Below are positions 1,713-45,853 of a stretch of 64,000 bases of DNA, piece by piece; within the stretch, counting starts at the first letter, position 1, and each line of letters starts with the position of its first letter. The notes beneath the pieces are model-generated. The model worked only from the letters and a program-made list of their open reading frames with translations. It was not told where the DNA came from and did no database searches. The stretch is from Zhihengliuella halotolerans. Its GTDB lineage: Bacteria; Actinomycetota; Actinomycetes; Actinomycetales; Micrococcaceae. The DNA is taken from assembly GCF_004217565.1 (NCBI RefSeq), contig NZ_SHLA01000001.1:1240001-1304000 (forward strand), written 5' to 3'. The position numbers were made by a program, and so were the translations under genes.

Positions 1713-3815
1713 CTAGAGGACCCCTGATTCCTTGAAACGCTTGGCGATTTCGGGGGCGAGGTTCTCCGCGTAGGTGTGCGAGATGTGACTCTTGTCGTAG
1801 TAGGTCACGATGCCGCCGATGAGGGCGTGGCAGGAGTCGTCCCGGCAGAAGAAGTCTTTCGTCTCGATGAAGTGGAACCGCTCATCGTCGATTCCCTCGG
1901 CGGCCGCTCGAAGATTCTGGGTCCGGGGGAATGACTTTTCTTCACTGAGGGAACAGAGCTCCACGTCGTCAGGGTTCTCGGCCACGCAGGTCGGCCCGTC
2001 GACCTCCCCTTGCTCGAGACGCGGGATCTCACCCAGCACGACAACGTCCTTGCCCCGGGCCATCCACGTTGACCAGGGTTCGATGAAGCCTTCCTTGGTC
2101 GGGTCCTCGAAGTCCTGTCCCGCCCCATTGACGTAGTCGCGGTCGGTCTGGTTCGCTCCCACGACCACGACGTCGATGGAGTCGTCGCCTGCGATCTTGT
2201 CGACGATCTGGCGGTTGGACTCGGTGCAGAGCTCGTTGAGCTCTTGGTCTCGCCCGTCCGCCTCAGCCGCGAGGTCGGCGACGTTCGGTGTGCATCCACT
2301 GCGTGTGTAGACCTCGAGTGCGATGTTCTCCTTGTGCGCCATGCTGTTCAAAGCCGGCAGCCACTGCGTCCCGTGGGAATCGCCGAACACGGCCATGACT
2401 TTATCCGCAGACTCCCGATCGACTCCGAGGCGGCAGTCAGGAAGGCCCTCGGCGTCCATTTCGGCCTGACAGTCCGGGAACGCGGGTTCCTTCGCCTGCT
2501 GCGCGACCACCTCGACAGCGGGGTTCGGATCTTTGTCGCCCGCAAGTGGGTCGCACTCTTCCGGGTTCAACATTGCTTGGTAGCCGTAGCAAGCGCTGGC
2601 GGTCGAGACCGCGTCGGACTGACGCACGGCGGATGCGCCGGTGGGCATCAGGAGAGCCAGCACGGTGATGAACGCCATGCCGGAGGCGGCCATGGTGTAG
2701 GTTCGCGGGCTACTGGCCAGCAGCCGGCTTCTTCGCCACGGGTCCTCGACTGTGATCTTGGAGGCCCAGGAGAGGAGGACGACGCCGGCGATCAGCACGA
2801 TCTTGCCCTGCCAGGTTTCAGCGGCTTCCCACGCGTAGGGGGCCAGCAGCACTACCGGCCAGTGCCAGAGATATATCGCGTAGGAGAGATCTCCGCCGAC
2901 CGTGGCCGGGCGGCGCGAGAGCCACCAGTAGATCCCACTGAAGCGCTCTCGACCGCCGCAGGCGAGCAGCGCAACCGTTCCGAGGACGGGGAGCAACGCT
3001 GTATACCCGGGGAACGGCGTCGCCGCCGAATACAGCACACCCGAGATCACGATCGCGGCGAAGCCCGCCCAGCCGATGAGATTCGCGAGCCGCCCGTGGT
3101 ATTGCCGCCCCATGAGGGCAAGAGCCACCACCGCGCCGGCGACGAACTCCCAGATGCGGGTCGGCGTGACGAAGTAGGCCTGAGCCGGATCATAGGCGGT
3201 GAAGGCGATGGAGAAGACGAGCGAGGCCAGGCCGAGCAGCGCGAGCGCGGTGATCATGACGCGGCGCAGGCGATCCGGGCTGGGGCGTCCCCGCCGCGAC
3301 ACCAGCCAGTAGACGATGAAGAGCAACAGCGGCCAGAGCACGTAGAACTGCTCCTCGACCGAGAGGGTCCAGAAGTGCTGGACCGCTGTGGCGGCGTCGT
3401 CTTGGGCGGAGTAGTCGACGGCGTCCGAGGCGAGCAGCCAGTTCTGCACGTAGAACGCCGATCCCATGACCTGCCGGTACGTCGCCTGCCAGAGCGTCGC
3501 CGGGAGAAGGATCACCGCCGCGATGGACGTGAGGATCAGGACCAGGAAGCTCAGTGGCAACAAGCGCCGGATACGACGCGCCCAGAACTTTCCGAGGTTC
3601 ACATGACCCTCGCGGACGATCTCCCGATAGAGGTGGGAGGTGATGAGGTAGCCGGAGATCACGAAGAAGATATCGACGCCAACGAATCCACCGGAGAGGT
3701 GCCACGGCCAGAAGTGGTAGAGGACCACCAAGGCGACTGCCAGAGTACGCAGACCCTGGATCTCAGGTTGAAATCCCGTAGTCAACCGAGTGTCCGCCGC
3801 GGAAAGCGTGCTCAC
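1713..3815 (-). CDS. Acyltransferase-3 / SGNH O-acyltransferase (OafA type)
   Basis: A 700-residue membrane acyltransferase, complete here. Residues 1-360 form the acyltransferase-3 domain: QPEIQGLRTLAVALVVLYHF, GGFVGVDIFFVISGYLI, then VQHFWTLSVEEQFYVLWPLL and about ten hydrophobic segments. After a last helix near 380-400 comes a soluble SGNH hydrolase-like domain with VMAVFGDSHGTQW (Ser about 480) and a late D-x-x-H-like block, YYDKSHISHTYA. In characterised relatives the membrane part passes an acyl group across the membrane and the SGNH part transfers it to sugar. GTG start at 3815 with AAGGAG upstream; the start overlaps the stop of the preceding glycosyltransferase (GTGA), so the two are translationally coupled. 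It is a paralogue of the truncated gene next to it but keeps the canonical GDSH block. Confidence 0.9.
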   Translation of the reverse strand: MSTLSAADTRLTTGFQPEIQGLRTLAVALVVLYHFWPWHLSGGFVGVDIFFVISGYLITSHLYREIVREGHVNLGKFWARRIRRLLPLSFLVLILTSIAAVILLPATLWQATYRQVMGSAFYVQNWLLASDAVDYSAQDDAATAVQHFWTLSVEEQFYVLWPLLLFIVYWLVSRRGRPSPDRLRRVMITALALLGLASLVFSIAFTAYDPAQAYFVTPTRIWEFVAGAVVALALMGRQYHGRLANLIGWAGFAAIVISGVLYSAATPFPGYTALLPVLGTVALLACGGRERFSGIYWWLSRRPATVGGDLSYAIYLWHWPVVLLAPYAWEAAETWQGKIVLIAGVVLLSWASKITVEDPWRRSRLLASSPRTYTMAASGMAFITVLALLMPTGASAVRQSDAVSTASACYGYQAMLNPEECDPLAGDKDPNPAVEVVAQQAKEPAFPDCQAEMDAEGLPDCRLGVDRESADKVMAVFGDSHGTQWLPALNSMAHKENIALEVYTRSGCTPNVADLAAEADGRDQELNELCTESNRQIVDKIAGDDSIDVVVVGANQTDRDYVNGAGQDFEDPTKEGFIEPWSTWMARGKDVVVLGEIPRLEQGEVDGPTCVAENPDDVELCSLSEEKSFPRTQNLRAAAEGIDDERFHFIETKDFFCRDDSCHALIGGIVTYYDKSHISHTYAENLAPEIAKRFKESGVL

Positions 3816-5644
3816 CGACCAGTCTCCTTCTCCTCAGGAATATCCGACTGGGTGATGTTACCGGCCTGACCTGTGGATTCGGTGGATCGAATCTGATGGT
3901 AGAGGCGGCCGTACTTCCGCGCGTTCGCGATCCAGGTCCTGTCCTCGAGGGCCCATGTCCGTCCCGCCTGGCCGAGTTCGCGGGCGAGCTCGGGGTCGTC
4001 GAGCACGTGGGCCAGTTTCGCGGCCAGATCGTTGACGTCCTCGGAGGTGAAGAGCGCGCCGGTGACCCCGTCGTGCACGAGTTCGGCAAGTGCCGGCAGA
4101 TCCGAGGCCACCACGGGCCGGGCGCTGGCCGATGCCTCGACGGGCTTGAGCGGGGTCACCCGCCGGGTGACCTCCAAGTCCTTGCGCGGGACGACGAACA
4201 CGTCGAGCGCCTGGTGGTAGATGTGCGCCTGGCTGCGCGGCACTCGTCCCGGGAAGTCGACACGGTCGGACACGCCGAGGCGTTCAGCCTGACGCTTCAG
4301 CGACGGCAGCGCGACTCCGTCGCCGGCGATCAGGAGGCGGAGGCCGGGCCGGTCGGGCGCGATCAGAGCGAACGCGGCGACGAGGTCGTCGAGGCCCTCA
4401 TAGGCCACGATGCTCGACACCGTGCCGATGTAGTTGCTTTCGGGGTTCAGGCCAAGGCGCATGCGGGCTTCGCGCTGGGAGCTCGGTTCGGTGAGGAAGG
4501 CCTCCCCGACCGCGTTCGGGCAGATTTCGATCCTGGCGGGATCGACGCCCTGGGCCACGAGCTCGTCCCGCATGGCGGCCCCGAGAGTGACGACGGCGTC
4601 CGCGGCCCGAGCGACCTCGGCCTCGCGCTCCTTGAACAGGGCGTAGCGTTCGGAGTCTTTGGCCGCCTCGCCGCGAGTCGAGGCCCAGGTGTCGGCCAGC
4701 TGGCCGCGCACCTCATAAACCCACTCGATGCCGTAGGCCTCGGCCACAGCCCGGACGACGAGCCCGTTCACGAAGTGCGTGGTCGTGTGCAGCACGGCCG
4801 GTCGGAAACGCTCCACCAGACGGGCCAACTCGACGGCCTGCTGCTGCAGCCGCGCGTCGAAGCCGTGAGCGAGCCGCTGCGGCAGGATGCGCTGGTAGGT
4901 GATCCCGTCGATCGTGTCCTGCTTCGCGGCGAGCGGCTTGCCCACCTGGACCGGGTATCCGAGCCGGGTCGCGGCCATCACGTCCCAGCCGGCGTCGCGC
5001 AGGGCGACGAGAATCGAGTGCGTGCGCTGGGCGTAGCCGCTGCCGGTGTGCGGCAGGGAGTTGGTGGCCAGGTGCAGGACGCGCTGCGGGAGCGGCGCGT
5101 ACCCGGGCTGCGCGTCCAACCGCGGAGTCTCACCCGAAAAGGTGCGCAGTTCGGCGCGGTACCGCTCGCACAGGGTGGCCGCGCCGTCGTCGTACGCCTC
5201 CGTGGAGGTGAAAGGTTCGAGCAGGCCGACGGCCGCGGACATTTCACCACGGTGCCACGCCAGCCGGGCGCGAGCGGCGGCGATGGCGGCCGACGGCGGC
5301 AGGTCGGCGAGCAGGCCCTCAGCAAGGTCCGCGTGGCCCACGGCGGTGGCAATGTCGGCGAGGCGGCGGGCCTGCACGTGGCTCAGGCCGTGAGCGCGTG
5401 CCCGTTCGATGCGTTCGACGACGCCGTGGTCGTCGCCGCGGACGGCCGCGGCGACACCGCCAAGCACCGACGCGTCGTCGGTGCAGACGCGCCCGACGGC
5501 GCGGGCGAGCGCGTTGACCGGCCCGGCGGGCAGCCGGCGGGAGATCTGGAGCCCCAACACGACGGGGTCGTCGCCGAGATGCTCGCGGACCGTGCGCAGG
5601 GTCAGGCCGAGGTTCGAGGCCAGGTCCTTGGCGGTGGGGGTCAT
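3812..5644 (-). CDS. GT4-family glycosyltransferase with N-terminal helical extension
   Basis: Probable cytoplasmic retaining glycosyltransferase of 610 residues. The C-terminal ~400 residues have the GT-B, GT4 pattern: VLHLATNSLPHTGSGYAQRT near the start of the first Rossmann domain, WVYEVRGQLADTWAS, PNAVGEAF, GTVSSIVAYEGLDDL, FPGRVP and an acidic donor-site region TPLKPVEASASARPVVASD. Residues 1-190 are helix-rich with alanine repeats and resemble tandem helical hairpins; their role is unknown. ATG start at 5644 overlaps the stop of the upstream glycosyltransferase, and its own stop overlaps the acyltransferase start. It is a clear paralogue of the gene at 27305-29044, sharing VLHTTTHFVNGLVVRAVA and VFVVPRKD. 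Sugar donor and acceptor cannot be told from sequence. Confidence 0.88.
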   Translation of the reverse strand: MTPTAKDLASNLGLTLRTVREHLGDDPVVLGLQISRRLPAGPVNALARAVGRVCTDDASVLGGVAAAVRGDDHGVVERIERARAHGLSHVQARRLADIATAVGHADLAEGLLADLPPSAAIAAARARLAWHRGEMSAAVGLLEPFTSTEAYDDGAATLCERYRAELRTFSGETPRLDAQPGYAPLPQRVLHLATNSLPHTGSGYAQRTHSILVALRDAGWDVMAATRLGYPVQVGKPLAAKQDTIDGITYQRILPQRLAHGFDARLQQQAVELARLVERFRPAVLHTTTHFVNGLVVRAVAEAYGIEWVYEVRGQLADTWASTRGEAAKDSERYALFKEREAEVARAADAVVTLGAAMRDELVAQGVDPARIEICPNAVGEAFLTEPSSQREARMRLGLNPESNYIGTVSSIVAYEGLDDLVAAFALIAPDRPGLRLLIAGDGVALPSLKRQAERLGVSDRVDFPGRVPRSQAHIYHQALDVFVVPRKDLEVTRRVTPLKPVEASASARPVVASDLPALAELVHDGVTGALFTSEDVNDLAAKLAHVLDDPELARELGQAGRTWALEDRTWIANARKYGRLYHQIRSTESTGQAGNITQSDIPEEKETGR

Positions 5645-19376: not shown

Positions 19377-20369
19377 TCAGGCGCAGGATTCGGAGGCGCT
19401 CAGCGTGGTCACACTGACGTTCTCCGGAGATCCGTACGTGCGGAGCAGCGACAGGGTGGTCTCCTGCTCGGGCACGTGAACGTGGATGCGCCAGCGGGCT
19501 TCGTCGTCTTCTCCTCCGGGCAGGGCGCTGATGATCACGGACTCGCCGACGTCGTCGAGCTGGGCGCGCAGCAGGGCCGCGTCGAGGGGACTCAGGCTCA
19601 TGCTGCACATGACCTCGACGCCCTCTTCGGCTGGGACCGTGCGGTGCACGTGCGGGTCCTGGATGCCGTAGCCGGGGAATCCGTCGAGGACTTCCTCCGC
19701 GACGTCGGTCCCGGCGATGGCGGCCTTCATGGCCTCGAGGACGAGGAGGAACCCGACGGCGCCTGCGTCCACCACGTGGGCTGCGGCCAGGGTGTCAAGT
19801 TCGGCCTCCGACTGCGCGACGGCGATTCTGGTGGCCTCGATGCTGTTCTCGAGCCCGCGCAGCAGGGCGGCACGGGACTGCGGTTCGGCGCTGACCTCGG
19901 CCTCCTGCAGGGAGGCGAAGACGGCCTCGCTCGCGGCCGACATGGCGGTGAGCATCGTCCCACGCACCGGGTCCGTCAGGGCGGACCAGCTACGCAGCTG
20001 GCCGCGATCCAGCGATTCGGCCAGCAGGGAGAGGTTCAGCCGGGGTTGGCCGATGAGGGGTTCGGCGAAGCCGACGAGGAAAACGGAGAAGAGGGTGCCG
20101 GAGTTACCGCGGGCGTCTTCTAGGGCGGCCTCAGCGGCGGCGGAGAGGACAAGACCGACATCCGAGTCGTTGTCGATGTCATGCGCGGCCTGGGCGGCGA
20201 CCTTGACGGTCTCATAGAGGTTCGTCCCGGTATCGCCGTCGGCGACGGGAAAGACGTTGATCGCGTCGAGGCGGTCGCTGTGGTTGGCGAGAACCGTTTC
20301 GGCCTGCTTCAACCACGCTTTCGCACCTGGCACGCCAGTGGCGAGTTTCTGCTGCACGTCCATACCCAT
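19377..20369 (-). CDS. DAK2/DhaL-domain protein (fatty-acid-kinase-like)
   Basis: DhaL-fold ATP-binding protein related to FakA/DegV-partner kinases, which phosphorylate acyl groups bound to a partner protein. AINVFPVADGDTGTNLYETV carries the magnesium-ADP-binding aspartates, and ARGNSGTLFSVFLVGF and VVDAGAVGFLLVLEAM are the other DhaL blocks. At about 330 residues it is much shorter than FakA (~550) and keeps only a compact C-terminal domain, as is common next to recG in this lineage. Start is uncertain: ATG at 20369 is used; TTG at 20417 and ATG at 20363 are also in frame and none has a strong ribosome site. No DegV/FakB partner is encoded nearby. Confidence 0.85.
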   Translation of the reverse strand: MGMDVQQKLATGVPGAKAWLKQAETVLANHSDRLDAINVFPVADGDTGTNLYETVKVAAQAAHDIDNDSDVGLVLSAAAEAALEDARGNSGTLFSVFLVGFAEPLIGQPRLNLSLLAESLDRGQLRSWSALTDPVRGTMLTAMSAASEAVFASLQEAEVSAEPQSRAALLRGLENSIEATRIAVAQSEAELDTLAAAHVVDAGAVGFLLVLEAMKAAIAGTDVAEEVLDGFPGYGIQDPHVHRTVPAEEGVEVMCSMSLSPLDAALLRAQLDDVGESVIISALPGGEDDEARWRIHVHVPEQETTLSLLRTYGSPENVSVTTLSASESCA

Positions 20370-20597
20370 TCGATCCAATATCAGCCGACCATGGCCGCCG
20401 TCGTTCGCGATGGACAACGGCGTCGTCGCCTCGGTCGTCGCGGTGGTTCCACCGCTGACTCTGCTTCATCCAGACTATCGCATCGGCGTCTCCGAGACCG
20501 TGCTCCGGACACGCGTGGGCGGGCGCCGATTCCGGCCGGAGTACTACCCACGCGTAAGATCGTCCGGGTAGGAACGAACCGAGCGTAAGGGCAGTTG

Positions 20598-20924
20598 ATG
20601 GGCCGTCAGGCTTCGCAGGACACCCGCGGCGATGCAGAAGGCATCCTCCGCGGAGCACGCCATGCACGGCAGGACAACCGCTTCGCGATCCCCGCTGGCT
20701 ACGCGGACCCGTACCTGCCACCCATCGAACCGGCACCGTTGCTCGGCACCACCCAGCGGCCCACGTCCCCGGCGGAACCGCACGAGGACACGAGCTTCAT
20801 CAACCTCATCTCACTCGTTCCGACGGCGGACAAGCTGGCCCGCAAGCGCTTCATCGCGCGCAGCATCCTGATCTTGGCGATTGCGGCCGTCCCCGCGGTG
20901 ATTCTGGGCTTGATGCTCACGTGA
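20598..20924 (+). CDS. Small single-pass membrane protein, unknown
   Basis: A 108-residue protein I do not recognise. The N-terminal 75 residues are polar and proline-rich (YADPYLPPIEPAPLLG). A short amphipathic stretch, a KLARKR basic anchor and one C-terminal transmembrane helix (ILILAIAAVPAVILGLML) follow, so it is probably tail-anchored. ATG at 20598 is preceded by AAGGG with six-base spacing. It diverges from the DAK2 gene and is closed by a strong hairpin terminator. In relatives this slot often holds rpmB, which is absent here. Confidence 0.6.
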   Translation: MGRQASQDTRGDAEGILRGARHARQDNRFAIPAGYADPYLPPIEPAPLLGTTQRPTSPAEPHEDTSFINLISLVPTADKLARKRFIARSILILAIAAVPAVILGLMLT

Positions 20925-20953
20925 ACCTGGCCTGGCTGAATCGAGGCGAAATT

Positions 20954-20995
20954 GACGAGGCCCGCGAATCCACCAAAGGATTCGCGGGCCTCGTC
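20954..20995. terminator. Bidirectional hairpin terminator
   Basis: A perfect 18-base inverted repeat (20954-20971 and 20978-20995) with a six-base loop lies between two convergent genes: the small membrane protein ending at 20924 and the giant glycosyltransferase ending at 21012. A short T run follows it on the minus strand; none follows on the plus strand. Confidence 0.8.
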
Positions 20996-21011
20996 GCTTG
21001 CCAGCAGCACG

Positions 21012-24000
21012 TCAGTCGCCGGCACCCATCACGAGGGTTTCGAGCTGGTCGAGCACGAGAGACGCGGCGAACCGCCGACAGTACTCGCGGGCATCAGCCG
21101 ACGCCCGTTGGTAGGACTCCTCATCGCCTGCCACAGTGGCGATGGTGGACGCCATCCCGTCCGTGGTGAGGTGCAACCAGGACTCGGGATAGATCTCTTC
21201 CGCGCCCGGCCACGCCAGAGATACCGGCAGCGCACCGGAGGCGCCGCCGTCGGCCAAGGTCAGGTGGAAGGACTCGAAGTCGCTCACGGAGAGCACGACG
21301 CCGATCTTGCGGTACCACTCCCCCATGTCGTCGCCGTGGCCGTCGAAGTGCACGGCCCCGCGGAGGTTCGGATCGTTCTCGATGCGAGCGCGCTGGGCGT
21401 CGTAGTAGGCCATCTCACGTTCGCGCTTGAGCATCCAGGGGTAGTCCTCGGGCGTGCGGCCCTTGACGAAGAGCTGGAACCGGTCGTCACGGCTCCTGAG
21501 CTCCGCCAGGACGTCGAGCGCGCGGTCGAGGTGCTTTTGCTGCGGCACGATTCCGACGAGCCCCAGATTGAATCGAGCGTCCTGGGTCTTGTCGGCGTCG
21601 AAGTAGGCCTCGTCCACCGCATTCGGGACGACACGCGTGCTCGCCTCGGCGTAGTTGTAGCGGGTCGTGGCCATCTGCTCCACGAGCCGCCCAACGAAGA
21701 CCGTCTGATCGATCCGGCCCAACTGGGTGCGCTCCGGGTACGGCGTGAACAGTTCCTGCGAGTGGAAGCGCGCAACCAGGCGCTGCCGCTTCTTGACGTT
21801 CTTCGCGTACCACTCCGCGTTGCCGAGCGACCATTCGCAGAAGACGACGTCGGCCTGCTCGAGCAGGCCGTAGCTGGTTTCCGGGTCGTGCTTGCCGTGG
21901 TCCTGCCACTCGTCGATGAGGATCGTGTGGCCACGTCCGCGCAGGCGATCGATCAGCTGACCCGCGAATTTCAGGTCGTGGCCGGCGATGAGCACGGTGC
22001 GCGGACCGTCCACCTCATCGTGGTCACTCTCTGGGCCCTCGACCTCTTCGAGACGTGGGACGGCCAACGCGCGCCGCAGTAATGCCACGGCCTCCCCCTC
22101 TACGGGCGCGGCGCCGAGCCACGGGCGGTCTGATCGAGCGGAGCCTTCGTTCAGGAGCGCGAGCCCCGGCCTGTCGAGGTCTGAATCACTGACCTGGACC
22201 GTGCCGGCCCCGTCCTGTTGTGCGACCGCGCTCAACCACGCGCCGCGGCTGAGGTCCTCGCCGAGCAGCTCATCGTTCAGGTACGCCCCGAAGCCGGCGG
22301 CCGGCACGCCGTCGGGCACGTCAGTGACCACCTGGATCCCCGCGCCCTCGAGCACCGCCGCTCCGCTCCGGTCTGCGTCTTCCGGCACGACGACGGCAGC
22401 TGGCCGGTGCGTCTGGCGGAGCACGGCCGAGGCGGTGGATGACGAGGCGTCGTCGACGGTGAGCGCGTAGTCGTTCAACACCGGGGCGGAGACGGGGATT
22501 CCTGCCGTGCGCAGCATAAGGGCCAGCCGGTGGCCGGCGAGGTGCGCCCGGTAGACGAGCCGGTGAAGAGTCCAGGCGTCGTGATTGCGACCGGCTTCGT
22601 TCTTGAGCCAGTAATTCGCGAGGAGCCCGGCGGCCTCTGGGCTGGTGGCCAATGGGAGATGCGGCGCGAAAAACGTCGGCACGCCCATGCCGGAACCGGT
22701 GATGACGGGCGTGCCACAGGCCGCCAATTCCATGACACGACGCGAAAACATGGTCGGCGACTTCGCAACCGAGTTGACGTTCACATGTACGGGGTGAGCC
22801 TTGTAGGCCTCGACCATCTCCGGGTAGGAGAGCCCGCCTCGCACGTACTTGGACAGCGATCCGGGGAACTGATAGGGGCTTCCGGGGTGGTTGACCTGAC
22901 GGTCGTAGATCGTCAGGCCGTGCTCGGCGACTTCGCCCAGGATGCGGGCGAGTTCCTTGGAACGGTCCGGATAGCGGTCCCCGTAGTAGGAGCCGCCGTA
23001 AGCAACAGAATGCGCGTACTCCCGTTGGCTCGGAGTCGGGTTGTGCAGGAGCGGCTGGGCGAAGAACGGCAGAGCCGCGATGGACTTCGCTCGCTGACCG
23101 GGTTCAGCGGCGTAACGCGGAATACAGTCGGCGTCCGTCGTGAAGACGTGATCGAAGTGGCCCGCAGTCCGCACGAATCGGCCGATGTGGACCGGGTCCT
23201 CCTTGTTCCAGAAGATGGTGGGAATCCCACGGTCGCCGCATGCGGCGAGGAGCGATGCCAAGGATTCGAATTCCTCGTCGGAGTAGAAACCCACACCCCG
23301 GCGCCACTGCCCGCCGTTGCCCTCCCAGGCGGATTCAACGAGCAGCGCGTCAATCGGCTCAGCGTCCAGCTGCTGTTGCCAACTTTCGCGATCCATCCGG
23401 ATCAGCGTGCACTCAGCGTCGAGACTCGTGGTGGTGAATTCGTCGGCGATGATACCGACGCGCATCGTCGACAACGGTCGGTCTCCGTCGGACTCGCGGC
23501 CGTGCTCGGTGGCCCCCGTCTCGACGGCGGCGAGCAGCGGCTCGTGCGCTGCTGCCACTCTCTCGGCTACGGCCGTCCAGGACCGCTCGTGTACAGCCCA
23601 CCAGCGCGCGGTTCGGCCGATGTCCGCGCGCAGCGACTCATCCTCGAACAACTCCGCCAGTTTCTCTGCCAAGGCCTCGGCGTTTCCAGCCTCGAAAAGA
23701 AGCCCTCGTCTTCCATCCTCGCCCAGGAGATGCTTGAGCGGGGCCACGTCGGATCCGACCACGGCAATTCCCGCGGCCATGGCCTCGAGTGGCTTGAGCG
23801 GGGAGACCATTTCGGTGACCAGGTTGCTGATGCGCGGGCACGGGGCGACATCGAAGAGGCTGAGGTACCTGGGGATTTCGTCCGATTCGACCCGTCCGGT
23901 GAAGAGCACTTTCTCAGACAGTCCCAGATCCCGCACTTGACCCTTGAGCGACTCGAACGAGGCTCCATCGCCGACAAGCAGGAGCCGCGCTTCGTCGTTG

Positions 24001-25496
24001 TCGGCCGCAAATTTCGCGAAGGCGTCCACGAGGACGTCAAGACCCTCGTAAGGCACCATGCTGCCGGCGTAGCCGATAACGAAGTGCTCGGGCTGAATGC
24101 CGAGTTTCGATGCGAGCCAACGATCCCGGGAAACGGGAACGAATTTAGCGGGATCGGCCGCGTTGGGCACCAGCTGGATCCGGTCCGTCGAAACACCTCG
24201 ACGGATGAGTTCGTCCCGGACTTCTTCGGTGATGGCCAACACTTGGTCCGCTTCACGAGCCACGAGGGCCTCGAGATCGCGGGCGATGCCGAACTTTTCT
24301 GTCTCGGTCCAGCCTGTTCCCTTCGACGCCGCTTCCGTGATCTCCCAGAGTCCGCGGACTTCGTAGACGAAGGGTACGCCGAGGCGGCGGGCCGCCAACA
24401 GGGCGGGCAGCGCTGTGAAGTAGTTCGACGCGCTGTGAATCAGGGCCGGGCGGTTGAGCATGGCCTCACGGACGTAGATGTCTGCGGCCTGATGCAGGTA
24501 GACGTCCAACGGCGTGCGGGCGAGATTTGGCCCCGGATTGTAGATGTGCTGGACACCGTTGTGGCCGCGACTCGAACGCTTCGGCTTGAGTGACGGCCCA
24601 GTCGTCTTACTGTCCCAGGGGTACCCAGGCCGTGCAGCTACGAACACATCCTCACCGTTCGCAGCGAGGCCGTTGACCAATCCCGACGTCCGCGTCGAGT
24701 ACCCGTTCGAATTGAACTCACCGGTGCTGTGGGCACAGTACATAAGCCGCTGATGGATGGGCTGATACCCCGGGGTGGCACTGCGAGGCGGAATGAACGG
24801 CAACTGCCCGACGAACCGAGCAAATCCGTAGACCTGACCCATGAAGGACCGGTCGCGATCCGTCAAGGTGAATGCGGGGCCGTCTGGAAGGTCCTCTTCC
24901 TGCATTCTCATCAAGAGGTCACGAGCCTCGATCACCGCACCACGAACAAAGAACGCTTGGCGTGCAGCGGCCAACAACGACTTTCGCGTGACCTCGTCAG
25001 GATGCGCAGCTACGGCCGGCCTAACCGGCGCAGAGTTCGACGAGGAGACCGTCGTGGCGTTCGGCCCCGCCGAGACCGGTGCTGCCATAGACCGCTGGCT
25101 CTCCGATGCGTTCGAAGCGGTCTTTCGGGCCACATCCCGAACTCTCGCGAAAGCGGCCTGCGGACGCGCAAGCACCTTTGACATTCTCACGGCCGGGTCA
25201 TCGCGTAGACGTTCATAGGCCGCCTTGAACTTCTCTACCCGGGCGGTTTGATTGTCATACAACTCCTGCAGTCGCTCATTGCGCTGCTTGACTTTGCTCA
25301 GTTCCCGCTTCAGCCTGGCGCGGTCGGCGTTCGCCTGTTGGATTTCGTGTTCAACTTTCCGAACACGCTGGCTGAGAGATGCTTCAATCGCGCGCAAACG
25401 CAAGAATTCATCGACGGACGATTCGACGTCCTGGGTGAGTCGAAATGCTCGCGCACGATCGAGAGGCGAGCTGGGAGGAGACTGGTCGATGCCCAT
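21012..25496 (-). CDS. Giant multi-domain glycosyltransferase (coiled coil + GT4 + CgeB-like + GT4-like)
   Basis: A 1494-residue cytoplasmic protein. Residues ~20-110 are a heptad-rich coiled coil (SSVDEFLRLRAIEASLSQRV onward). Residues ~250-640 are a GT4 domain: NGYSTRTSGLVNGLAANGED, VPFVYEVRGLWE, VPNAADPAKFVPV, GYAGSMVPYEGLDVLVDAF and SPLKPLEAMAAGIAVVGSD. Residues ~660-1000 are a CgeB-like GT-B domain with IPTIFWNKEDPVH and VHVNVNSVAKSPTMFSRRVMELAACGTPVI. A poorly conserved stretch follows. Residues ~1165-1494 are a third GT-B half-pair (VVPNAVDEAYF, GLVGIVPQQKHLDRALDVL, ESFHLTLADGGASGALPVS). Three catalytic modules on one coiled-coil-tethered chain suggest processive or concerted assembly of a repeat unit. 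ATG at 25496, about 100 bases after the ABC ATPase gene. The CgeB module is paralogous to the protein at 44213-45853. Confidence 0.88.
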   Translation of the reverse strand: MGIDQSPPSSPLDRARAFRLTQDVESSVDEFLRLRAIEASLSQRVRKVEHEIQQANADRARLKRELSKVKQRNERLQELYDNQTARVEKFKAAYERLRDDPAVRMSKVLARPQAAFARVRDVARKTASNASESQRSMAAPVSAGPNATTVSSSNSAPVRPAVAAHPDEVTRKSLLAAARQAFFVRGAVIEARDLLMRMQEEDLPDGPAFTLTDRDRSFMGQVYGFARFVGQLPFIPPRSATPGYQPIHQRLMYCAHSTGEFNSNGYSTRTSGLVNGLAANGEDVFVAARPGYPWDSKTTGPSLKPKRSSRGHNGVQHIYNPGPNLARTPLDVYLHQAADIYVREAMLNRPALIHSASNYFTALPALLAARRLGVPFVYEVRGLWEITEAASKGTGWTETEKFGIARDLEALVAREADQVLAITEEVRDELIRRGVSTDRIQLVPNAADPAKFVPVSRDRWLASKLGIQPEHFVIGYAGSMVPYEGLDVLVDAFAKFAADNDEARLLLVGDGASFESLKGQVRDLGLSEKVLFTGRVESDEIPRYLSLFDVAPCPRISNLVTEMVSPLKPLEAMAAGIAVVGSDVAPLKHLLGEDGRRGLLFEAGNAEALAEKLAELFEDESLRADIGRTARWWAVHERSWTAVAERVAAAHEPLLAAVETGATEHGRESDGDRPLSTMRVGIIADEFTTTSLDAECTLIRMDRESWQQQLDAEPIDALLVESAWEGNGGQWRRGVGFYSDEEFESLASLLAACGDRGIPTIFWNKEDPVHIGRFVRTAGHFDHVFTTDADCIPRYAAEPGQRAKSIAALPFFAQPLLHNPTPSQREYAHSVAYGGSYYGDRYPDRSKELARILGEVAEHGLTIYDRQVNHPGSPYQFPGSLSKYVRGGLSYPEMVEAYKAHPVHVNVNSVAKSPTMFSRRVMELAACGTPVITGSGMGVPTFFAPHLPLATSPEAAGLLANYWLKNEAGRNHDAWTLHRLVYRAHLAGHRLALMLRTAGIPVSAPVLNDYALTVDDASSSTASAVLRQTHRPAAVVVPEDADRSGAAVLEGAGIQVVTDVPDGVPAAGFGAYLNDELLGEDLSRGAWLSAVAQQDGAGTVQVSDSDLDRPGLALLNEGSARSDRPWLGAAPVEGEAVALLRRALAVPRLEEVEGPESDHDEVDGPRTVLIAGHDLKFAGQLIDRLRGRGHTILIDEWQDHGKHDPETSYGLLEQADVVFCEWSLGNAEWYAKNVKKRQRLVARFHSQELFTPYPERTQLGRIDQTVFVGRLVEQMATTRYNYAEASTRVVPNAVDEAYFDADKTQDARFNLGLVGIVPQQKHLDRALDVLAELRSRDDRFQLFVKGRTPEDYPWMLKREREMAYYDAQRARIENDPNLRGAVHFDGHGDDMGEWYRKIGVVLSVSDFESFHLTLADGGASGALPVSLAWPGAEEIYPESWLHLTTDGMASTIATVAGDEESYQRASADAREYCRRFAASLVLDQLETLVMGAGD

Positions 25497-25600
25497 TTTT
25501 CTCTCTGTATTGTCGAAGGTAGAAATCTGTTTGTGAGATCACCGCCACTAACGGCGCGAATGATCGTGGAAGCTAGCAGGAACTGACGGCCGGGTTGACT

Positions 25601-26413
25601 TCACGATACCCGTCGGCGGGCACCCCCACGCACCGACAAGACCGGCGGGATGTAGCCCTTCTGGAAGCGCCGCAGAAGCTGGACGGCCCGCTTCGATTCC
25701 CCTTTGCGTTCGGCCGTTGTCAACTGCGTCCGCCATCGTTTGACAGTCGCCGGCTCGTCATCCATGATGACGCGCCCATCGTGGATCCAGCAGATGCGGT
25801 TCGTCAATTGCAGTAGATGACGAATCTCGTGGCTCACGACGATGAGCGTGCCGCCCCGCCGATGGAACGCCTCCAGCTTCCTTTGCTCACCGTCGTTTGC
25901 CAGCAATTCGACCAGAGTCTCGGCCTCGTCGATCACCAAAATCCGAGTACCGGTGACGAGAGCGAGGTAAAATCGGATGCGATCTACGACTTCCTGATCT
26001 ATGTTCTGGACCAGTTCGTCGAGAGTCTCGTCACCGATTTGCGCTTCAGCCGCGACGGTAGCGACGGCGCTGGTTACCCGTTGCCCACTCATGCGATTCG
26101 CGGTTGCGAAACGCACCATGTTGAATCGCAACGATTCTTCCGCGTCGTACGATCCGGCTGCGTCGAGAACCACCGGCTCTCCGTCAACGTAAATCTTGCC
26201 ATCTGTCGGAACGCTGTTCCCGGTAATCACCTCCGCGATCAGCGCGGCCCCATCCCGGCGACTGCCGAGGAAGCCGACCGCTTCTCCGGCTTCAGCCAGG
26301 AAGGTCAGGTCATTAATGACAGCCGTGAAGGCCTTCTTGCCGCGCCCTTGGCTACGCTCCGCGCTGACACCGTGTAGGAGGAGTGTGGGCCGCACTCGAG
26401 CCGGAGGCGTCAT
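25601..26413 (-). CDS. ABC exporter ATP-binding subunit (TagH/Wzt-like) with degenerate Walker A
   Basis: ATPase-fold subunit paired with the ABC-2 permease just upstream, as in teichoic acid and O-antigen exporters. Walker B is good (TRILVIDEAETL) and the H-loop is present (IVVSHEIRHLL). At the Walker A position the sequence is GFLGSRRDGAALIAEVITG, so the GK[ST] of the P-loop is replaced by GAA; I checked this against the nucleotides (26240-26290). The LSGGQ-type signature is also unclear (NIDQEVVDRIRFYLALV). ATG at 26413 begins one base after the permease stop; an upstream in-frame start at 26434 would overlap the permease gene. It may be a pseudo-ATPase, need a second ATPase encoded elsewhere, or bind nucleotide differently. 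Confidence 0.82.
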   Translation of the reverse strand: MTPPARVRPTLLLHGVSAERSQGRGKKAFTAVINDLTFLAEAGEAVGFLGSRRDGAALIAEVITGNSVPTDGKIYVDGEPVVLDAAGSYDAEESLRFNMVRFATANRMSGQRVTSAVATVAAEAQIGDETLDELVQNIDQEVVDRIRFYLALVTGTRILVIDEAETLVELLANDGEQRKLEAFHRRGGTLIVVSHEIRHLLQLTNRICWIHDGRVIMDDEPATVKRWRTQLTTAERKGESKRAVQLLRRFQKGYIPPVLSVRGGARRRVS

Positions 26414-26414
26414 C

Positions 26415-27308
26415 TCAACGCCCCGTCGTTGCATAGTTGTCTCCGCGCATCCAGATCAGCCAGGATCCAACGATGAGAGGCACGAGTGCCCACAGAGCTA
26501 TCACGTACCACCCGTCGCCTGTGGGCACCTCGTTGTAGATGAGAGCCGATCGCGAGTACTCGAGTACCCAGTGCATGGGATTCCAATGCACAAGGAAATC
26601 GATGATGGGACTGATGCCGAGGAACCGTTCGGCAGAGAACATGACGCCGGAACCGAACATCCACGCTCGCGTGGCCACCTGAAGCACGTTCTGCAGGTCC
26701 GGGATGATGCCCACGAAGTGGGCCGCGAGCACGGAGACGCCGGCTGTCACGAGCACCTGAAGCACAATGATTGGAACCACAAGCAAGGCGATGAGACTGA
26801 TCTCCTTCGGCGGAGAGATCGCGAAAATCATCACGAGCATGACCAAATAGCTTGGGAAACCCGTCAGCCACGTCCGCACGTTCACCGTCAGCGGTTCCGC
26901 GAGCGCGGGCAACGCGGCGCCCGAGGCCTTTCTTCTCCGGTTCATGATCGATGCCGCAGATGCGCTGACCGATCTGGATGTCAGCTTGAAAAAGAAAACA
27001 CCGATCAGAAGGAACGCAAGAAAGTTGTCGATACCCTTGTCAAGATTCAGGATGACGCCGAATACCAGGAAATAAATAGCTCCGTCGAGAATGGGATTGA
27101 TGATCAGCCACAAGTTTCCCAGGTAGAGACGCTTCCCGGCATCATCGACCTTGGACCGGGCTTCGTGGAACATGTAGCTTCGCGCATCCCAGACTCGAAG
27201 CCAGTAGTCAACGAACTCCAGTCGTCCTCCGCGGACCTCCATCCCCGTGACATCGACGAGAATTGGCCCCTGTGCTCCATTTGGCACGTCATTGTTCACT
27301 GAATTCAT
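26415..27308 (-). CDS. ABC-2 type glycopolymer exporter permease (TagG/Wzm-like)
   Basis: Membrane subunit of a polysaccharide/teichoic-acid ABC exporter. A cytoplasmic N-terminal stretch is followed by an amphipathic entrance helix, GNLWLIINPILDGAIYFLVFG (the typical Wzm/TagG first helix region), and about five further hydrophobic segments ending WYVIALWALVPLIVGSWLI. I chose ATG at 27308 because AGGAGG lies five bases upstream; this start overlaps the stop of the GT4 gene (ATGA). Length 297 fits the family. It is paired with the ATPase-like gene one base downstream. Confidence 0.9.
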   Translation of the reverse strand: MNSVNNDVPNGAQGPILVDVTGMEVRGGRLEFVDYWLRVWDARSYMFHEARSKVDDAGKRLYLGNLWLIINPILDGAIYFLVFGVILNLDKGIDNFLAFLLIGVFFFKLTSRSVSASAASIMNRRRKASGAALPALAEPLTVNVRTWLTGFPSYLVMLVMIFAISPPKEISLIALLVVPIIVLQVLVTAGVSVLAAHFVGIIPDLQNVLQVATRAWMFGSGVMFSAERFLGISPIIDFLVHWNPMHWVLEYSRSALIYNEVPTGDGWYVIALWALVPLIVGSWLIWMRGDNYATTGR

Positions 27309-29044
27309 CGTGCCTCCTTCGCGCGGGTCAACCCATCGTAGATTTCCAAACTGATCTCGGCGTTTCGTTTCCATGTTCTCGTTGCTAGGACGAATTCACG
27401 GCCACTGAACCCCATCCTCTCGCGTAGGGCAGAATCCTCAACAAGGCTCTCGATTGCGTCAGCCAATGCTTCGGGATCTTCTGCCGGAACACAGTAGCCC
27501 GTCTTTCCGTGTTCGACCATCTCGCGAAGCGCGGGAAGATCGGAGGCAATTACGGGCCGGCAAGAGGCCATCGCTTCGACGGGTTTCAGTGGTGTCACGG
27601 AGCGCGTGACTGCGAAATCCTTTCGAGGAACTACGAAGATGTCCAAAGCTCGGTGGTAGCGAACCGCTTCCGCGACAGGTACACGACCGACGAAGATCCG
27701 TTCCGGATCAAGCCCTATCTGAGCCGCGTGAACGCGCAGCGACTTCAACGAGCTGCCGCTGCCGACGATGACGAGCTCGACGTCCACGCCTCGATCCTTC
27801 AGGATCGAATACGCCGTCAAAAGATCATCGATACCCTCGTAGCCCACAAGAGACGAGACCGTACCGATGTGGACCTTTCCGGGGTCGAGCCCCAGCCGGG
27901 GTTTGACCTCGCGAGAAGGCTGCGGAGTCTCCAAAAACGCGCTGCCGACAGCGTTGGGTGTAAGTCGGATACGACCCAAGGGAACACCTTGCGCTTCAAT
28001 CCGCTGTCGCATCGATGTCCCGAGCGTGAGGACGAGATCCGCGTCCCTCATGACCTCGCCTTCGCGAAGATTGAAGTGTTGATACCGCTCAGAGTTGGAC
28101 GCTTCAGGGCCCCGCTTAGACGCCCAGGTGTCCGAGAGCTGACCGCGTACCTCATAGACCCAGGGGATCCCCACCGCCTTCGCGACCGCGCGCACTACGA
28201 GCCCGTTGACGAAATGAGTTGTCGTATGCAGAACGGCGGGACGTACCTTCAACACGAGCTCGAGCAGGCGATCCGCCTCGAGCTGGAGACGCTCACGCAG
28301 GTTCGGGATGGTGCCGCGGACCAGCAATCGGTGGTACACGACGTCGTCGATCCGCTGGCGTTTGGGTGCGTGGGAGAAGCCCAGGGACTCGGGGTAGCCC
28401 AGCCGCGTCACGGCATGAACCTGCCACCCCTCATCGGCCTGCGCACGAAGCATTGAGTGGGAACGCTGCGTGTATCCGCTGGTCGTGTACGGCAGTGAAT
28501 TTGTTAGGAGATGCAGAACGACCTGCTCCTGCGGCTCGTACCCTTCAACGGAACCCACGCGGGGAACCCACTCGCCGAAAACGTCGCGCTCCGCTTCATA
28601 TCGGTCACGGAGGCGGCCCTGGCGTGCACTTGATGGATCCAGCCGATGTATCGCGGAACTTGTATGCCCGTTATAGAAGTCGAGCTTCGCCCGGGTGACC
28701 TCCATGCCGTCGGCGTCATCCATTCTGGCAGCGAAGACAGCGGCCACCTGCGGCAGGTCAGCGGCCAAGGCGATATTGGCGAGACTTCGGGCACGGTTCC
28801 CCCGTGGTCCGCGTGCCAACGCTGATCGTAGCCGGAAATTGATCTCGTCGGAATCGCCGATAAGCAGTGCAGCCATCGAGGACGCCGTCAAGGACGGCAC
28901 TGCGCCCAGACCAGCATCCAGGATTCGCAACCCGCGTTCTGCGACTGGCGAGGAACGGCGGCGCCACAGACGCTCAACGAACGCAACTGGATCTTCCCTC
29001 CAGTGACGGCGGAGCGTATGACGCTTGGCCAGGAGTCCCTTCAT
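27305..29044 (-). CDS. GT4-family glycosyltransferase with N-terminal helical extension (paralogue)
   Basis: A 579-residue glycosyltransferase, same architecture as the enzyme at 3812-5644: a helix-rich N-terminal ~180 residues, then a GT-B domain with VLHLLTNSLPYTTSGYTQRS, PWVYEVRGQLSDTWAS, GTVSSLVGYEGIDDLLTAY, FVGRVP and VTPLKPVEAMASCRPVIASD. ATG start at 29044; GAGGCG upstream is a plausible ribosome site. The stop overlaps the permease start by four bases, so this GT and the exporter are one translational unit. Codon use is visibly less GC-biased than in the recG region. Confidence 0.88.
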   Translation of the reverse strand: MKGLLAKRHTLRRHWREDPVAFVERLWRRRSSPVAERGLRILDAGLGAVPSLTASSMAALLIGDSDEINFRLRSALARGPRGNRARSLANIALAADLPQVAAVFAARMDDADGMEVTRAKLDFYNGHTSSAIHRLDPSSARQGRLRDRYEAERDVFGEWVPRVGSVEGYEPQEQVVLHLLTNSLPYTTSGYTQRSHSMLRAQADEGWQVHAVTRLGYPESLGFSHAPKRQRIDDVVYHRLLVRGTIPNLRERLQLEADRLLELVLKVRPAVLHTTTHFVNGLVVRAVAKAVGIPWVYEVRGQLSDTWASKRGPEASNSERYQHFNLREGEVMRDADLVLTLGTSMRQRIEAQGVPLGRIRLTPNAVGSAFLETPQPSREVKPRLGLDPGKVHIGTVSSLVGYEGIDDLLTAYSILKDRGVDVELVIVGSGSSLKSLRVHAAQIGLDPERIFVGRVPVAEAVRYHRALDIFVVPRKDFAVTRSVTPLKPVEAMASCRPVIASDLPALREMVEHGKTGYCVPAEDPEALADAIESLVEDSALRERMGFSGREFVLATRTWKRNAEISLEIYDGLTRAKEAR

Positions 29045-29206
29045 GGACGCGCCTCGCTTCGGCCCGGGGTCCCTCGACCTCGATCGCCTGAAATCACGAG
29101 TGAAGTTCTGCCTTCCGGTGAGAGTAACGCACGCTTGAACTCCAGCGCGCCTCGTTGAGAATATCCTGCAGCGGCCACATAGACCACCTACCTGAAACCG
29201 TTGACG

Positions 29207-30259
29207 CTAGTTCTCAAGCCCGTGGTTCTCGATGTAGGACGTCAATGTGTCCTTCTGCATGGCTTCCGAAATCGCCTGCGTGGTCGCCGGATCATGGATC
29301 ACGATCGACTGGCCGTCGGCCGAGCGACCGGTCCCCTGGTTGGGGAGCGTGAACGTGTGAACATCTGAGGATCTCACGTTGCGCAGGCTCACGCCGAGCT
29401 TGCCGAGGCCGAAGGCGTCCACCTCGTCATCGACCGAGACGAAGGGTGAGAAGTCGTCGACGATATTCGAAATTTTGCCGGGGTCCGTGAGCGTCTCTCG
29501 GGTCAGAAACTGCGCCATCACCGCCTTTAGGAACAGCTGCTGGTTGGCGACGCGGGTGTAGTCCCCGTCGGCGAACTGCTTACGTTCGCGCACGAATCGC
29601 AGTGCTTTGTCCCCTTCGAGAGTGATAGGACCGGACTCGTATGTGTAGGACTGCCCACCACCGTGAACCGTGAATGCCCGAGGGTTATTCACCTCGACGC
29701 CGCCGAGGGACTCGGTCAGGGCCTTGAATCCCTCGAAATCGATAATCGCCACGTGGTCGATGGGCACGTCGACGACGGATTCGATGGTTTCGACCAGCAG
29801 CGGGACCCCGCCGAAGGCGAGGGCCGCGTTGATCTTGTGTTCGCCGCGGCCGGGGATTTCGACCCAGGTGTCGCGCATGATCGACATGACGTTGATACTC
29901 TCGCGGTCCCCGGGAATATTGACGAGCATCATCGTGTCAGCGCGACCGCCGTTGGGCACACGCGGCAGGTCTTCAGTCTCACCGCTGCCGCCGCGACTGT
30001 CGGATCCGATCACGAGGTAGTTGATCGCATCGGCGCTCTCCGCCGACCGATCCGGACGGTCGGACGTCGGAAAGGCGGACTCGATCGACTGAGACTTCTG
30101 GTCGAAACTATTCTTGAGACTGAACAAGTAGCCCACAGCAACACCTGCGGCGATCAACACCACAAGCAGTACGGCAATGAGCGCCACGACCCCGGTCCGC
30201 TTTTTGCGCGGCCTCGGCTCGTCCGTGTACCCATCCCCCATGCCGTCAACACCGGCCAT
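29207..30259 (-). CDS. LytR-CpsA-Psr (LCP) family glycopolymer-peptidoglycan transferase (second copy)
   Basis: A second LCP protein of 350 residues: basic cytoplasmic start (PRPRKKR), one transmembrane helix (VVALIAVLLVVLIAAGVAVGYL), then an LCP core with YLVIGSDSRGG, ADTMMLVNIPGDR, VMSIMRDTWVEIPGRGEHKINAALAFGG, FEGFKALTESLGGVEVNNP and LRFVRERKQFADGDY. I chose ATG at 30259 because AAGGAG lies six bases upstream; an in-frame ATG 15 bases earlier lacks one. It is a close paralogue of the protein at 6888-8018. It lies upstream of the GT4-exporter genes on the same strand, consistent with anchoring the exported polymer. Confidence 0.92.
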   Translation of the reverse strand: MAGVDGMGDGYTDEPRPRKKRTGVVALIAVLLVVLIAAGVAVGYLFSLKNSFDQKSQSIESAFPTSDRPDRSAESADAINYLVIGSDSRGGSGETEDLPRVPNGGRADTMMLVNIPGDRESINVMSIMRDTWVEIPGRGEHKINAALAFGGVPLLVETIESVVDVPIDHVAIIDFEGFKALTESLGGVEVNNPRAFTVHGGGQSYTYESGPITLEGDKALRFVRERKQFADGDYTRVANQQLFLKAVMAQFLTRETLTDPGKISNIVDDFSPFVSVDDEVDAFGLGKLGVSLRNVRSSDVHTFTLPNQGTGRSADGQSIVIHDPATTQAISEAMQKDTLTSYIENHGLEN

Positions 30260-30312
30260 GTTCCACTCCTTCATCTGCAGTTCGCCCGCGCGGCCTGCGT
30301 CGCCTCAAAAGG

Positions 30313-44212: not shown

Positions 44213-45853
44213 TCAGATCTTCCAATCTTCGTCATCGAGAAGCCGGGACCCGCGAGGGATGCAGTTGAATTTGTCGGCAGCGTAACCGTCGACCGGCAGC
44301 TCGATGGCGCCGTCATCGTCAGAGAGCGGCCCGTACAGGGAGAGGAGGTCACCGAGACGGCGCGCGGCGATCGTACCCCGGAGCAGTTCACGAGAAGAGG
44401 ATTCCGTGGGCCGCCCGGGAACGGCCGTCCCGTCGTGGAGTTCGGTCTTCCCCACGAATGCCTCGGGCTGTTGGCGGGCCGCAAGGTACAGATCCTCCGC
44501 GTACGCCGGGGCGTAGGACATAGCAGTCGAAAAGGAAACGGAGAACACCTCGTCCATCCGATCACGATCCGCCAGGGGCCAACCGTGCCCGGCGACCAGC
44601 CGCTCGGCTGCCCGCGTAGCTTCCCATCCGCCCTGCGACGAACAGATGTGGACGCCGGATGGGCGGACAGACTGGGCTTCTATCTCAGCTAACAGGGGTT
44701 CGACATCCTGATCGTTCCCAATATCGAGGCAAGCGACATAGGAGAACTGCAACGGTCCCGACGAATCGTAGTCGGCGTGACCTTCGCTGGTCGAGGCTTG
44801 GTCCTGGTCCCGGGTCACGACCGCCAAGATGTACTTCAGTCGATCGTCATAGGTGTGGCGGCGCATCGTCACCCGCCAAGCTCGATGGGCCGTACGTTCG
44901 AAGAACGTCTGATCGTTGACAGCCGAGCCGATGAGCTCGACGGCTTCCTTCTGATCCGATGCCTGGAGAACCTCTCCATCAGCGTAGAAGCGGGAGATAG
45001 CGTTGGAGGGGCTCGACAATACGAGTGTCTTGCATGCGCTCAACTCGAAGATCCGGCGGGCGCACATCGACTCGCTCTGCGGGACGGAGTTTACGTTCAG
45101 GAAGAGCTTGTATCGACGGTACGCGAGGACCATCTCGTGGTATGGCAGTGACCCTTTGATCTTCTCCTCGTATCGTTCGGGGAAGCGGTAGTTTGGGTCA
45201 CCCCCCTGCTCTCGCGAAAATATATCGAAGTTGAACTCACTGGCCGCGGGGAACAAATAGTCCATTTGAGCGCGGCGTTCAGGGAATTTGTGCACGAAGT
45301 ACTGGCCGGCGAAGGCAACCTGGCCGGACCGGTACCCTTCCACGCGCCGAGGGCTGTGGATGTCCGGCGCCGCCGCAAACGGAAGGACGGAGATGTTGTC
45401 CCGCCCGGTAAGTGCTCTGTATCGTGGTACGACGCTTGCTTCGGTCGTGAAGATAAAATCGAAGAGGGCTGCCGTCTCTTTGAACTCGTCGAAGTGAGGA
45501 GGATCCTCTTTGTTCCAAAAGGCCGAAGGGATGCCCCTCTCCTTTGCCGCACTCACGAGTTCTTCGACCTTGCTGTCAGGCCCCGAAGTACGCGCGAACC
45601 GGTAACGCCAGGTGAAATTGTTACCGCTCCACGCAGACTCGCAGAGAAGAAGATCGGGTTTGAAGTAATCGAGAGCTTTCTCGATATCTTGCAATCCAAT
45701 CGGGACGATATTGGCAACACCACTGAAACACTGTGTCGAGAATTCGTCGAGGACGACTGCGATCGTTGGTTTACTGGTGTCCCACTCCCGACCATAGGTG
45801 GGCTTCTGGGGACTGTCGAAGAGATTGACTAACGCTTCTCGGTAGCTCAGCAT
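44213..45853 (-). CDS. CgeB-like glycosyltransferase
   Basis: A 546-residue protein whose first ~370 residues match the CgeB-like module of the giant enzyme at 21012-25496: TIAVVLDEFSTQCFSG, LLLCESAWSGNN, IPSAFWNKEDPPHF, FIFTTEASVVPRYRAL and LFLNVNSVPQSESMCARRIFELSACKTLVLS. The remaining ~170 residues (LQFSYVACLDIGNDQDVEPLL...) look like a shortened GT2-type or unknown domain ending in DDEDWKI. ATG at 45853 begins the operon running left through 38348. The upstream 335 bases separate it from the divergent SGNH-like gene. Sugar specificity unknown. Confidence 0.8.
   Translation of the reverse strand: MLSYREALVNLFDSPQKPTYGREWDTSKPTIAVVLDEFSTQCFSGVANIVPIGLQDIEKALDYFKPDLLLCESAWSGNNFTWRYRFARTSGPDSKVEELVSAAKERGIPSAFWNKEDPPHFDEFKETAALFDFIFTTEASVVPRYRALTGRDNISVLPFAAAPDIHSPRRVEGYRSGQVAFAGQYFVHKFPERRAQMDYLFPAASEFNFDIFSREQGGDPNYRFPERYEEKIKGSLPYHEMVLAYRRYKLFLNVNSVPQSESMCARRIFELSACKTLVLSSPSNAISRFYADGEVLQASDQKEAVELIGSAVNDQTFFERTAHRAWRVTMRRHTYDDRLKYILAVVTRDQDQASTSEGHADYDSSGPLQFSYVACLDIGNDQDVEPLLAEIEAQSVRPSGVHICSSQGGWEATRAAERLVAGHGWPLADRDRMDEVFSVSFSTAMSYAPAYAEDLYLAARQQPEAFVGKTELHDGTAVPGRPTESSSRELLRGTIAARRLGDLLSLYGPLSDDDGAIELPVDGYAADKFNCIPRGSRLLDDEDWKI

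Follow-up and report, generated by a model that had tools for sequence, protein, structure and literature searches.

A conserved Wzm-Wzt-type pair with a degenerate Wzt subunit in Zhihengliuella and two further genera of the Micrococcaceae

Introduction

The glycopolymer exporters Wzm-Wzt and TagGH, each an ABC-2 permease with a nucleotide-binding domain (NBD) subunit, are understood as ATP-driven machines (PMC6379404 and PMC7078476). For Aquifex Wzm PMC6379404 assigns roles to residues of the channel, and the same paper describes the YSSGM-type signature motif of Wzt. The coupling helix of the permease, where canonical Wzm reads FPR, has a role in docking to the NBD (PMC7078476). Here we describe a pair of this type from Zhihengliuella halotolerans, for which a first-pass annotation, made from the DNA letters, had pointed to an ATPase-like subunit with GAA in place of GK[ST] in its P-loop. 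We refer to this subunit as Wzt* and to its permease partner as Wzm*.

Results

Organisation of the cassette

The window, meaning the whole 64,000-nucleotide stretch of DNA that was analysed, comes from a genome of 3.58 Mb in a single contig, C1, where it spans 1240001-1304000. The features of the locus are as follows.

29207..30274, minus strand: LytR-CpsA-Psr (LCP) glycopolymer transferase gene adjoining the cassette
27305..29044, minus strand: GT579, a 579-aa GT4-type glycosyltransferase, the first gene of the cassette
26415..27308, minus strand: Wzm*, the ABC-2 permease partner of Wzt*, 297 aa
25601..26413, minus strand: Wzt*, a degenerate Wzt/TagH-type nucleotide-binding subunit, 270 aa
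26243..26266, minus strand: P-loop equivalent of Wzt*, GSRRDGAA, residues 50-57 of 270
25970..26002, minus strand: ABC signature position of Wzt*, IDQEVVDRIRF, residues 138-148
25919..25939, minus strand: Walker B of Wzt*, LVIDEAE, residues 159-165
25829..25831, minus strand: H-loop His195 of Wzt*
21012..25496, minus strand: GT1494, a 1494-aa three-module glycosyltransferase, the last gene of the cassette

The open reading frame of Wzt* extends over 25601..26434 on the minus strand and codes for 277 aa when read from the first ATG. The start that matches the neighbouring gene and the orthologues is the ATG at 26413, which gives 270 aa. As a single base lies between the end of Wzm* and the start of Wzt*, and GT579 and Wzm* overlap by four bases, the four genes GT579, Wzm*, Wzt* and GT1494 are probably translated jointly. 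By profile match GT579 and GT1494 both belong with soluble GT4-type families and not with membrane synthases. GT1494 combines three modules, of which one is of the GT4 type, the second glycosyltransferase-like and the third C-terminal; two more frames resembling GT579 and GT1494 are present in the window at 3812-5644 and 44213-45853. The LCP gene occupies the same place in all five Zhihengliuella genomes examined. Over positions 20000-30000 the G+C content goes from about 0.72 on one side of the cassette to 0.58-0.62 at Wzm*-Wzt* and 0.61-0.65 beyond.

Distribution of Wzt* and of the cassette

A search of 59 related genomes gave orthologues of Wzt* in all four other Zhihengliuella genomes examined, that of Zhihengliuella salsuginis lying at L059:9986-10798, and in one genome each of two further genera. 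When a profile was run against 395 family genomes (E 1e-40), the orthologues came to eight genomes from three of 32 Micrococcaceae genera, including all five Zhihengliuella examined. The genome of the window is labelled G000 below, and the carriers outside Zhihengliuella are G021, G030 and G079. Beyond the eight, no Wzt* was found in the order sample (396 genomes, E 1e-40) or the class sample (394 genomes, E 1e-38); the family, order and class searches were run at these strict limits with six candidates scored per genome, so that distant relatives could be missed. A record titled Kocuria polaris MS50-16 (MLDA01000012.1; L060, L036) carries a RecG and a DAK-like protein 97% and 98% identical to those of the genome of the window. 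As the corresponding identities for Zhihengliuella salsuginis are lower, at 85% and 84%, the name on the record is doubtful and probably wrong.

All eight genomes with Wzt* have the gene order GT579, Wzm*, Wzt*, GT1494. GT1494 itself occurs in 55 of the 395 family genomes, and the region around it was read in 48 of these, comprising the eight degenerate cassettes and 40 further ones. A canonical, complete Wzt is found in the cassette in 30 of the 40, all from other genera, and 29 of the 30 share the order GT579, Wzm, Wzt, GT~635, UGD, GT1494, with G007 arranged differently. The remaining ten regions are without a complete Wzt: seven have none in the stretch read (in G117 the contig ends), in G187 it lies about 3 kb outside, and the regions of G225 and G379 extend past the ends of their contigs. 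The seven regions with GT1494 and no Wzm-Wzt in the stretch come from two genera, and in four of them (L096, L098, L103 and L110) other genes are found near GT1494 and no intermediate form of Wzm-Wzt was seen there.

For the comparisons below a canonical set of 54 Wzt was assembled from 30 cassette sequences, 12 from second loci and 12 others. An unrelated 252-aa frame of G021 was left out of the counts, as were frames outside 240-420 aa, such as one of 583 aa in L009 and the 187-aa Wzt at a contig end of G379. The long Wzm frame of G309 was trimmed to its last 330 residues.

Loss of the ATP-site motifs from Wzt*

Among solved structures the best match to Wzt* is TagH (7dd0_A, E 1.3e-16, residues 36-236 of the query), the other top relatives being Wzt and TarH, and overall sequence homology to the NBD of Wzt/TagH ABC-type ATPases is present. 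The PF00005 profile scores 23.2 bits, below its cut-off of 25, and 25.1 bits when neighbouring pieces are included. AlphaFold predictions on three-row alignments had a mean pLDDT of 44.8 for Wzt* and 39.3 for Wzm*, too low to use.

Where the P-loop of canonical Wzt reads GRNGSGKS, the copy in the window reads GSRRDGAA, so that the Lys and the Ser/Thr are both missing, in agreement with the first-pass annotation. The whole translation was checked and contains no GK[ST] elsewhere. The signature, which had been called unclear, is absent outright, with IDQEVVDRIRF in place of the canonical YSSGMSARLRF. The aromatic residue of the A-loop is replaced by Arg. Walker B (ILVIDEAE) and the H-loop (VVSHE) are retained in this copy.

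When the eight orthologues are compared with the 54 canonical Wzt, the Walker A GKST, the YS[SA]GM signature, the Walker B DEAL and the A-loop Tyr/Phe are each found in all 54 canonical sequences and in none of the orthologues. The H-loop His, also present in 54 of 54, is kept by one orthologue, that of the window, and Walker B Asp-Glu by two. The earlier statement that Walker B and the H-loop are kept thus holds for the genome of the window, and none of the other seven has both. On the same grounds the Wzt* of the window is, judged by its motifs, the least degraded of the eight.

The loops that replace Walker A read SRRDGAA, SRRDGAQ, SRRDGAG, NRQDGVD, AKRDGIN, TPADGTS, TTADGIG and STTDGST, and the Walker A Lys is absent from all of them, in three genera. 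GK[ST] occurs only in homologues outside the Wzt* clade, and, since the loss is common to eight genomes, a strain mutation or a sequencing error is ruled out as its cause. The residue after the lost Lys is Ser in G021, Thr in G079 and something else in the other six. All eight loops have an Asp before the glycine (Asp54 in the Wzt* of the window), which occurs in none of the 54 canonical Wzt and would put an acidic charge at the place where the phosphates would lie. This Asp is one of five letters fixed in all eight Wzt* that few or none of the 54 canonical sequences have, the others being two Leu, one Gly and one Ile. The gate-helix loop between strands 1 and 2 is 22-25 residues long in the eight orthologues and 30-58 in the canonical set. 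Canonical Wzt has 75 conserved columns; at least seven of the eight Wzt* share 15 of these, many of them glycines, whereas 37 survive in one Wzt* or none.

The Wzm* channel and its coupling helix

Wzm* matches PF01061 (ABC2_membrane) with 29.3 bits, above the cut-off of 26.9, and for both Wzm* and Wzt* the best PDB sequence matches are TarGH/TagGH. The residues of Wzm* were mapped onto Aquifex Wzm through the canonical Wzm of the genome of the window. The Leu, Gly and Trp of the LG-loop region, the Pro of TM1, the Asp of TM5 and the Arg of the constriction are each present in all eight Wzm*, and the positions of the aromatic belt are Tyr/Phe, Met/Leu and Phe/Tyr, like the canonical set. Of 53 columns conserved in canonical Wzm, 31 are kept by at least seven of the eight Wzm* and 11 by one or none.

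The FPR between TM2 and TM3 of canonical Wzm has become LP[APV] in all eight Wzm*. In the coupling-helix stretch four of five conserved columns are lost, compared with seven of 48 elsewhere (Fisher p 0.005, for a stretch that was chosen post hoc).

A canonical exporter in the same genomes

The first-pass annotation had raised the possibility of another ATPase, and one canonical Wzt is indeed found in each of the eight genomes at E <= 1e-35. Each also has two Wzm at E <= 1e-8, namely Wzm* and a canonical one. The distance from Wzt* to the canonical pair is about 34-64 kb in six genomes and 855 kb in G079; in G004 the two sit on different contigs. Beside the canonical pair is a GT~635-like gene in G001, G004 and G030 and a relative of an 893-aa glycosyltransferase in G000, G002 and G003. 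A tree constrained to unite the eight canonical Wzm is rejected (AU p 1e-9). They are of several lineages, so the canonical exporter was exchanged while the degenerate pair stayed a single clade.

The canonical locus near SMC varies even among close relatives, with a GT893-like or a GT~635-like gene (L031, L035, L037, L039, L041 and L043), as if exporter cassettes were swapped at this site. An apparent extra Wzt at G000:C1:3299110, a 404-aa frame, proved to hold no Wzt but an ordinary ATPase of 315 aa, with a membrane protein after it. The one PADLOC match, to Cas3g over the C-terminal part (15.6 bits, E 0.0012), was judged to be due to chance.

Selection, origin and exchange

None of the eight Wzt* frames contains an internal stop, compared with about 83 expected for random codons of the same base composition. 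For the pair G000-G001 Wzt* has a dN of 0.30 and a dS of 2.1; dS is saturated in the other three pairs compared. In all four pairs pN/pS is 0.34-0.36 for Wzt* and 0.23-0.28 for Wzm*, and the substitutions in Wzt* look purifying. The argument made earlier from the intact frame, that simple decay is not the explanation, is borne out by both results. Wzt* has nevertheless evolved fast, with end branches of 0.55-4.2 against a median of 0.30 in the Wzt tree, whereas those of Wzm* (0.22-0.83, median of the Wzm tree 0.24) indicate an ordinary rate.

Wzm*, Wzt* and GT579 of the eight genomes each form a single clade with support of 100/100, and G021, G030 and G079 are separate from Zhihengliuella in all three trees. 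Because long branches meet in the Wzt* clade (the program gave a warning), that clade is by itself weak proof of a single origin, and its placement is unsure. Without a known root, the Wzm and Wzt trees fit a duplicate as well as a retained ancestor.

Within Zhihengliuella the Wzm* tree joins G001 with G002 (98/88), while the GT579 tree joins G000 with G002 (100/99). Between G000 and G002 pS is 0.77-0.78 for Wzt* and Wzm*, 0.66 for GT579, 0.33 for GT1494 and 0.21 for RecG; across RecG, the DAK-like gene and SMC it is 0.17-0.26. Values for GT579, LCP and Ddl lie between the extremes (0.54-0.66). The conflicting groupings and the high pS of the pair argue that its inheritance was not strictly vertical. 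The peak of synonymous divergence at Wzm*-Wzt* suggests recombination with the pair at its centre, and allelic exchange between relatives explains best both the tree conflict and the pS values. Such exchange is consistent with Wzm* and Wzt* travelling and working as a pair, but not with a gene on its way out.

Discussion

We tentatively prefer, at somewhat less than an even chance, the reading that Wzt* is a conserved pseudo-ATPase in a Wzm-like complex that does not pump and is likely to serve as a platform for glycosyltransferases, beside a normal exporter. Among the alternatives in the first-pass annotation we therefore favour a pseudo-ATPase over another source of power or a borrowed ATPase. 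The loss of ATP handling is the well supported part, as far as motifs can tell: lacking the Walker A Lys and the signature, Wzt* has no half of a canonical ATP site to contribute, whether alone or with a partner, which is why we read Wzm*-Wzt* as non-pumping. The platform role we infer from the gene order.

In the proposed scheme Wzt* would have had a single origin before the three genera split, at the site that in other Micrococcaceae genera is occupied by a canonical Wzm-Wzt, flanked by GT579 and GT1494. Wzt* would neither bind nor hydrolyse ATP and would remain docked on Wzm*, whose coupling helix would have changed alongside. Together they may form a membrane platform, or a passive gate, for GT579 and GT1494 with no pumping, the canonical Wzm-Wzt presumably exporting lipid-linked polymer with ATP. 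Counting against a pseudo-ATPase are the Walker B and H-loop of the copy in the window and the Ser or Thr that follows the lost Lys in G021 and G079. The channel of Wzm* is also better kept than a platform needs, which favours explanations where polymer passes through Wzm*; given this channel, ATP-free transport is conceivable.

Wzm* might then be a working channel through which chain growth by GT1494 and GT579 pushes the polymer without ATP, Wzt* being a docking collar. Such a conduit would account for channel residues kept in all eight Wzm* despite the loss of the motor, and for the link to both glycosyltransferases in all eight genomes, but we consider it unlikely: these enzymes match soluble families rather than membrane synthases, Wzm homologues are expected to act on lipid-linked substrates (PMC6379404), and the canonical exporter in all eight genomes leaves no need for an ATP-free route. 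The corresponding general claim, of an ABC-2/Wzm channel without an ATP engine, where the polymer is driven by its own synthesis and the former ATPase is a collar for the glycosyltransferases, we regard as quite unlikely. The presence of one canonical and one degenerate pair in every one of the eight genomes could alternatively reflect an asymmetric exporter made of a Wzm-Wzt half and a Wzm*-Wzt* half, like the ABC exporters with one degenerate site. This too is improbable, since the absence of the Walker A Lys and signature from Wzt* would leave both composite sites incomplete. The two pairs moreover sit at separate loci, and a fixed partner surface is unlikely because the canonical Wzm are of several lineages and Wzm* is one clade. 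The canonical Wzt, being in every genome with Wzt*, might instead power Wzm* itself, which resembles a working permease, with Wzt* as a competing regulator or an assembly factor. The FPR of the coupling helix, a helix with a docking role (PMC7078476), is however altered in all eight Wzm*, and a borrowed motor of this kind seems doubtful, if conceivable.

Two further explanations concern Wzt* alone. Its evolution, much faster than that of canonical Wzt, and the 37 of 75 conserved columns kept by one or none of the orthologues could mean that the exporter is redundant and that Wzt* is functionless and slowly being lost. Decay was already unlikely and we give it very little probability in view of the eight intact frames and the purifying pattern, the five fixed letters that include the Asp of the P-loop, and a gene order maintained across three genera. 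The other is that ATP or another nucleotide is bound through different residues, for example the two Arg of SRRDG. The loop retains most of its glycines and contains Arg-Arg in the copy in the window and in two orthologues, and Walker B and the H-loop are retained in the genome of the window. The Arg pair is, on the other hand, absent from three orthologues (TPADG, TTADG and STTDG), the A-loop aromatic is lost and the Asp is fixed in the P-loop, so such nucleotide handling appears highly improbable.

In one lineage of three genera the channel subunit has been kept and the motor residues of its partner are gone, beside glycosyltransferases that flank a complete motor in other genera. The pair amounts to a natural separation of channel, docking and energy. 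It makes directly testable either a non-energetic role of an NBD, in which polymerases are held at the membrane, or the passage of polymer free of ATP. If the latter were true, ABC-dependent glycopolymer export would have a natural branch that runs without ATP. It also calls for caution, as an ABC-2 cassette alone is no proof of a powered exporter.

Among the matches listed from the open-licence literature (titles and the starts of abstracts), none concerns a Wzt or TagH that lacks Walker A. Like the O-antigen exporter Wzm-Wzt of Aquifex aeolicus (PDB 6m96, 6oih and 7k2t), the pair consists of an ABC-2 permease and an NBD, and Wzm* has the LG-loop, TM1 Pro, TM5 Asp and belt positions described for Aquifex Wzm in PMC6379404. 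Unlike it, Wzt* is without the Walker A Lys, the signature, the A-loop aromatic and a long gate loop, and the coupling-helix motif of Wzm* is altered. The wall teichoic acid exporter TarGH/TagGH (PDB 6jbh, 7dd0, 9cfl and 9cfp) provides the top PDB matches, and an LCP gene lies near the cassette; TarH, however, carries all conserved motifs according to PMC7078476, and Wzt* does not. In the canonical cassettes of the Micrococcaceae (n=30, for example L094 and L105) the pair is likewise located between GT579 and GT1494 in 29 of 30, but these have complete ATPase motifs, and in 29 GT~635 and UGD stand between Wzt and GT1494. The degenerate-site ABC exporter Pdr5 resembles the present case in having one NBD unable to sustain hydrolysis (PMC8421411). 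According to that paper, Pdr5 retains one canonical composite site, to which its other NBD and the degenerate half, through the C-loop, both contribute, whereas Wzt* offers a partner neither Walker A nor signature.
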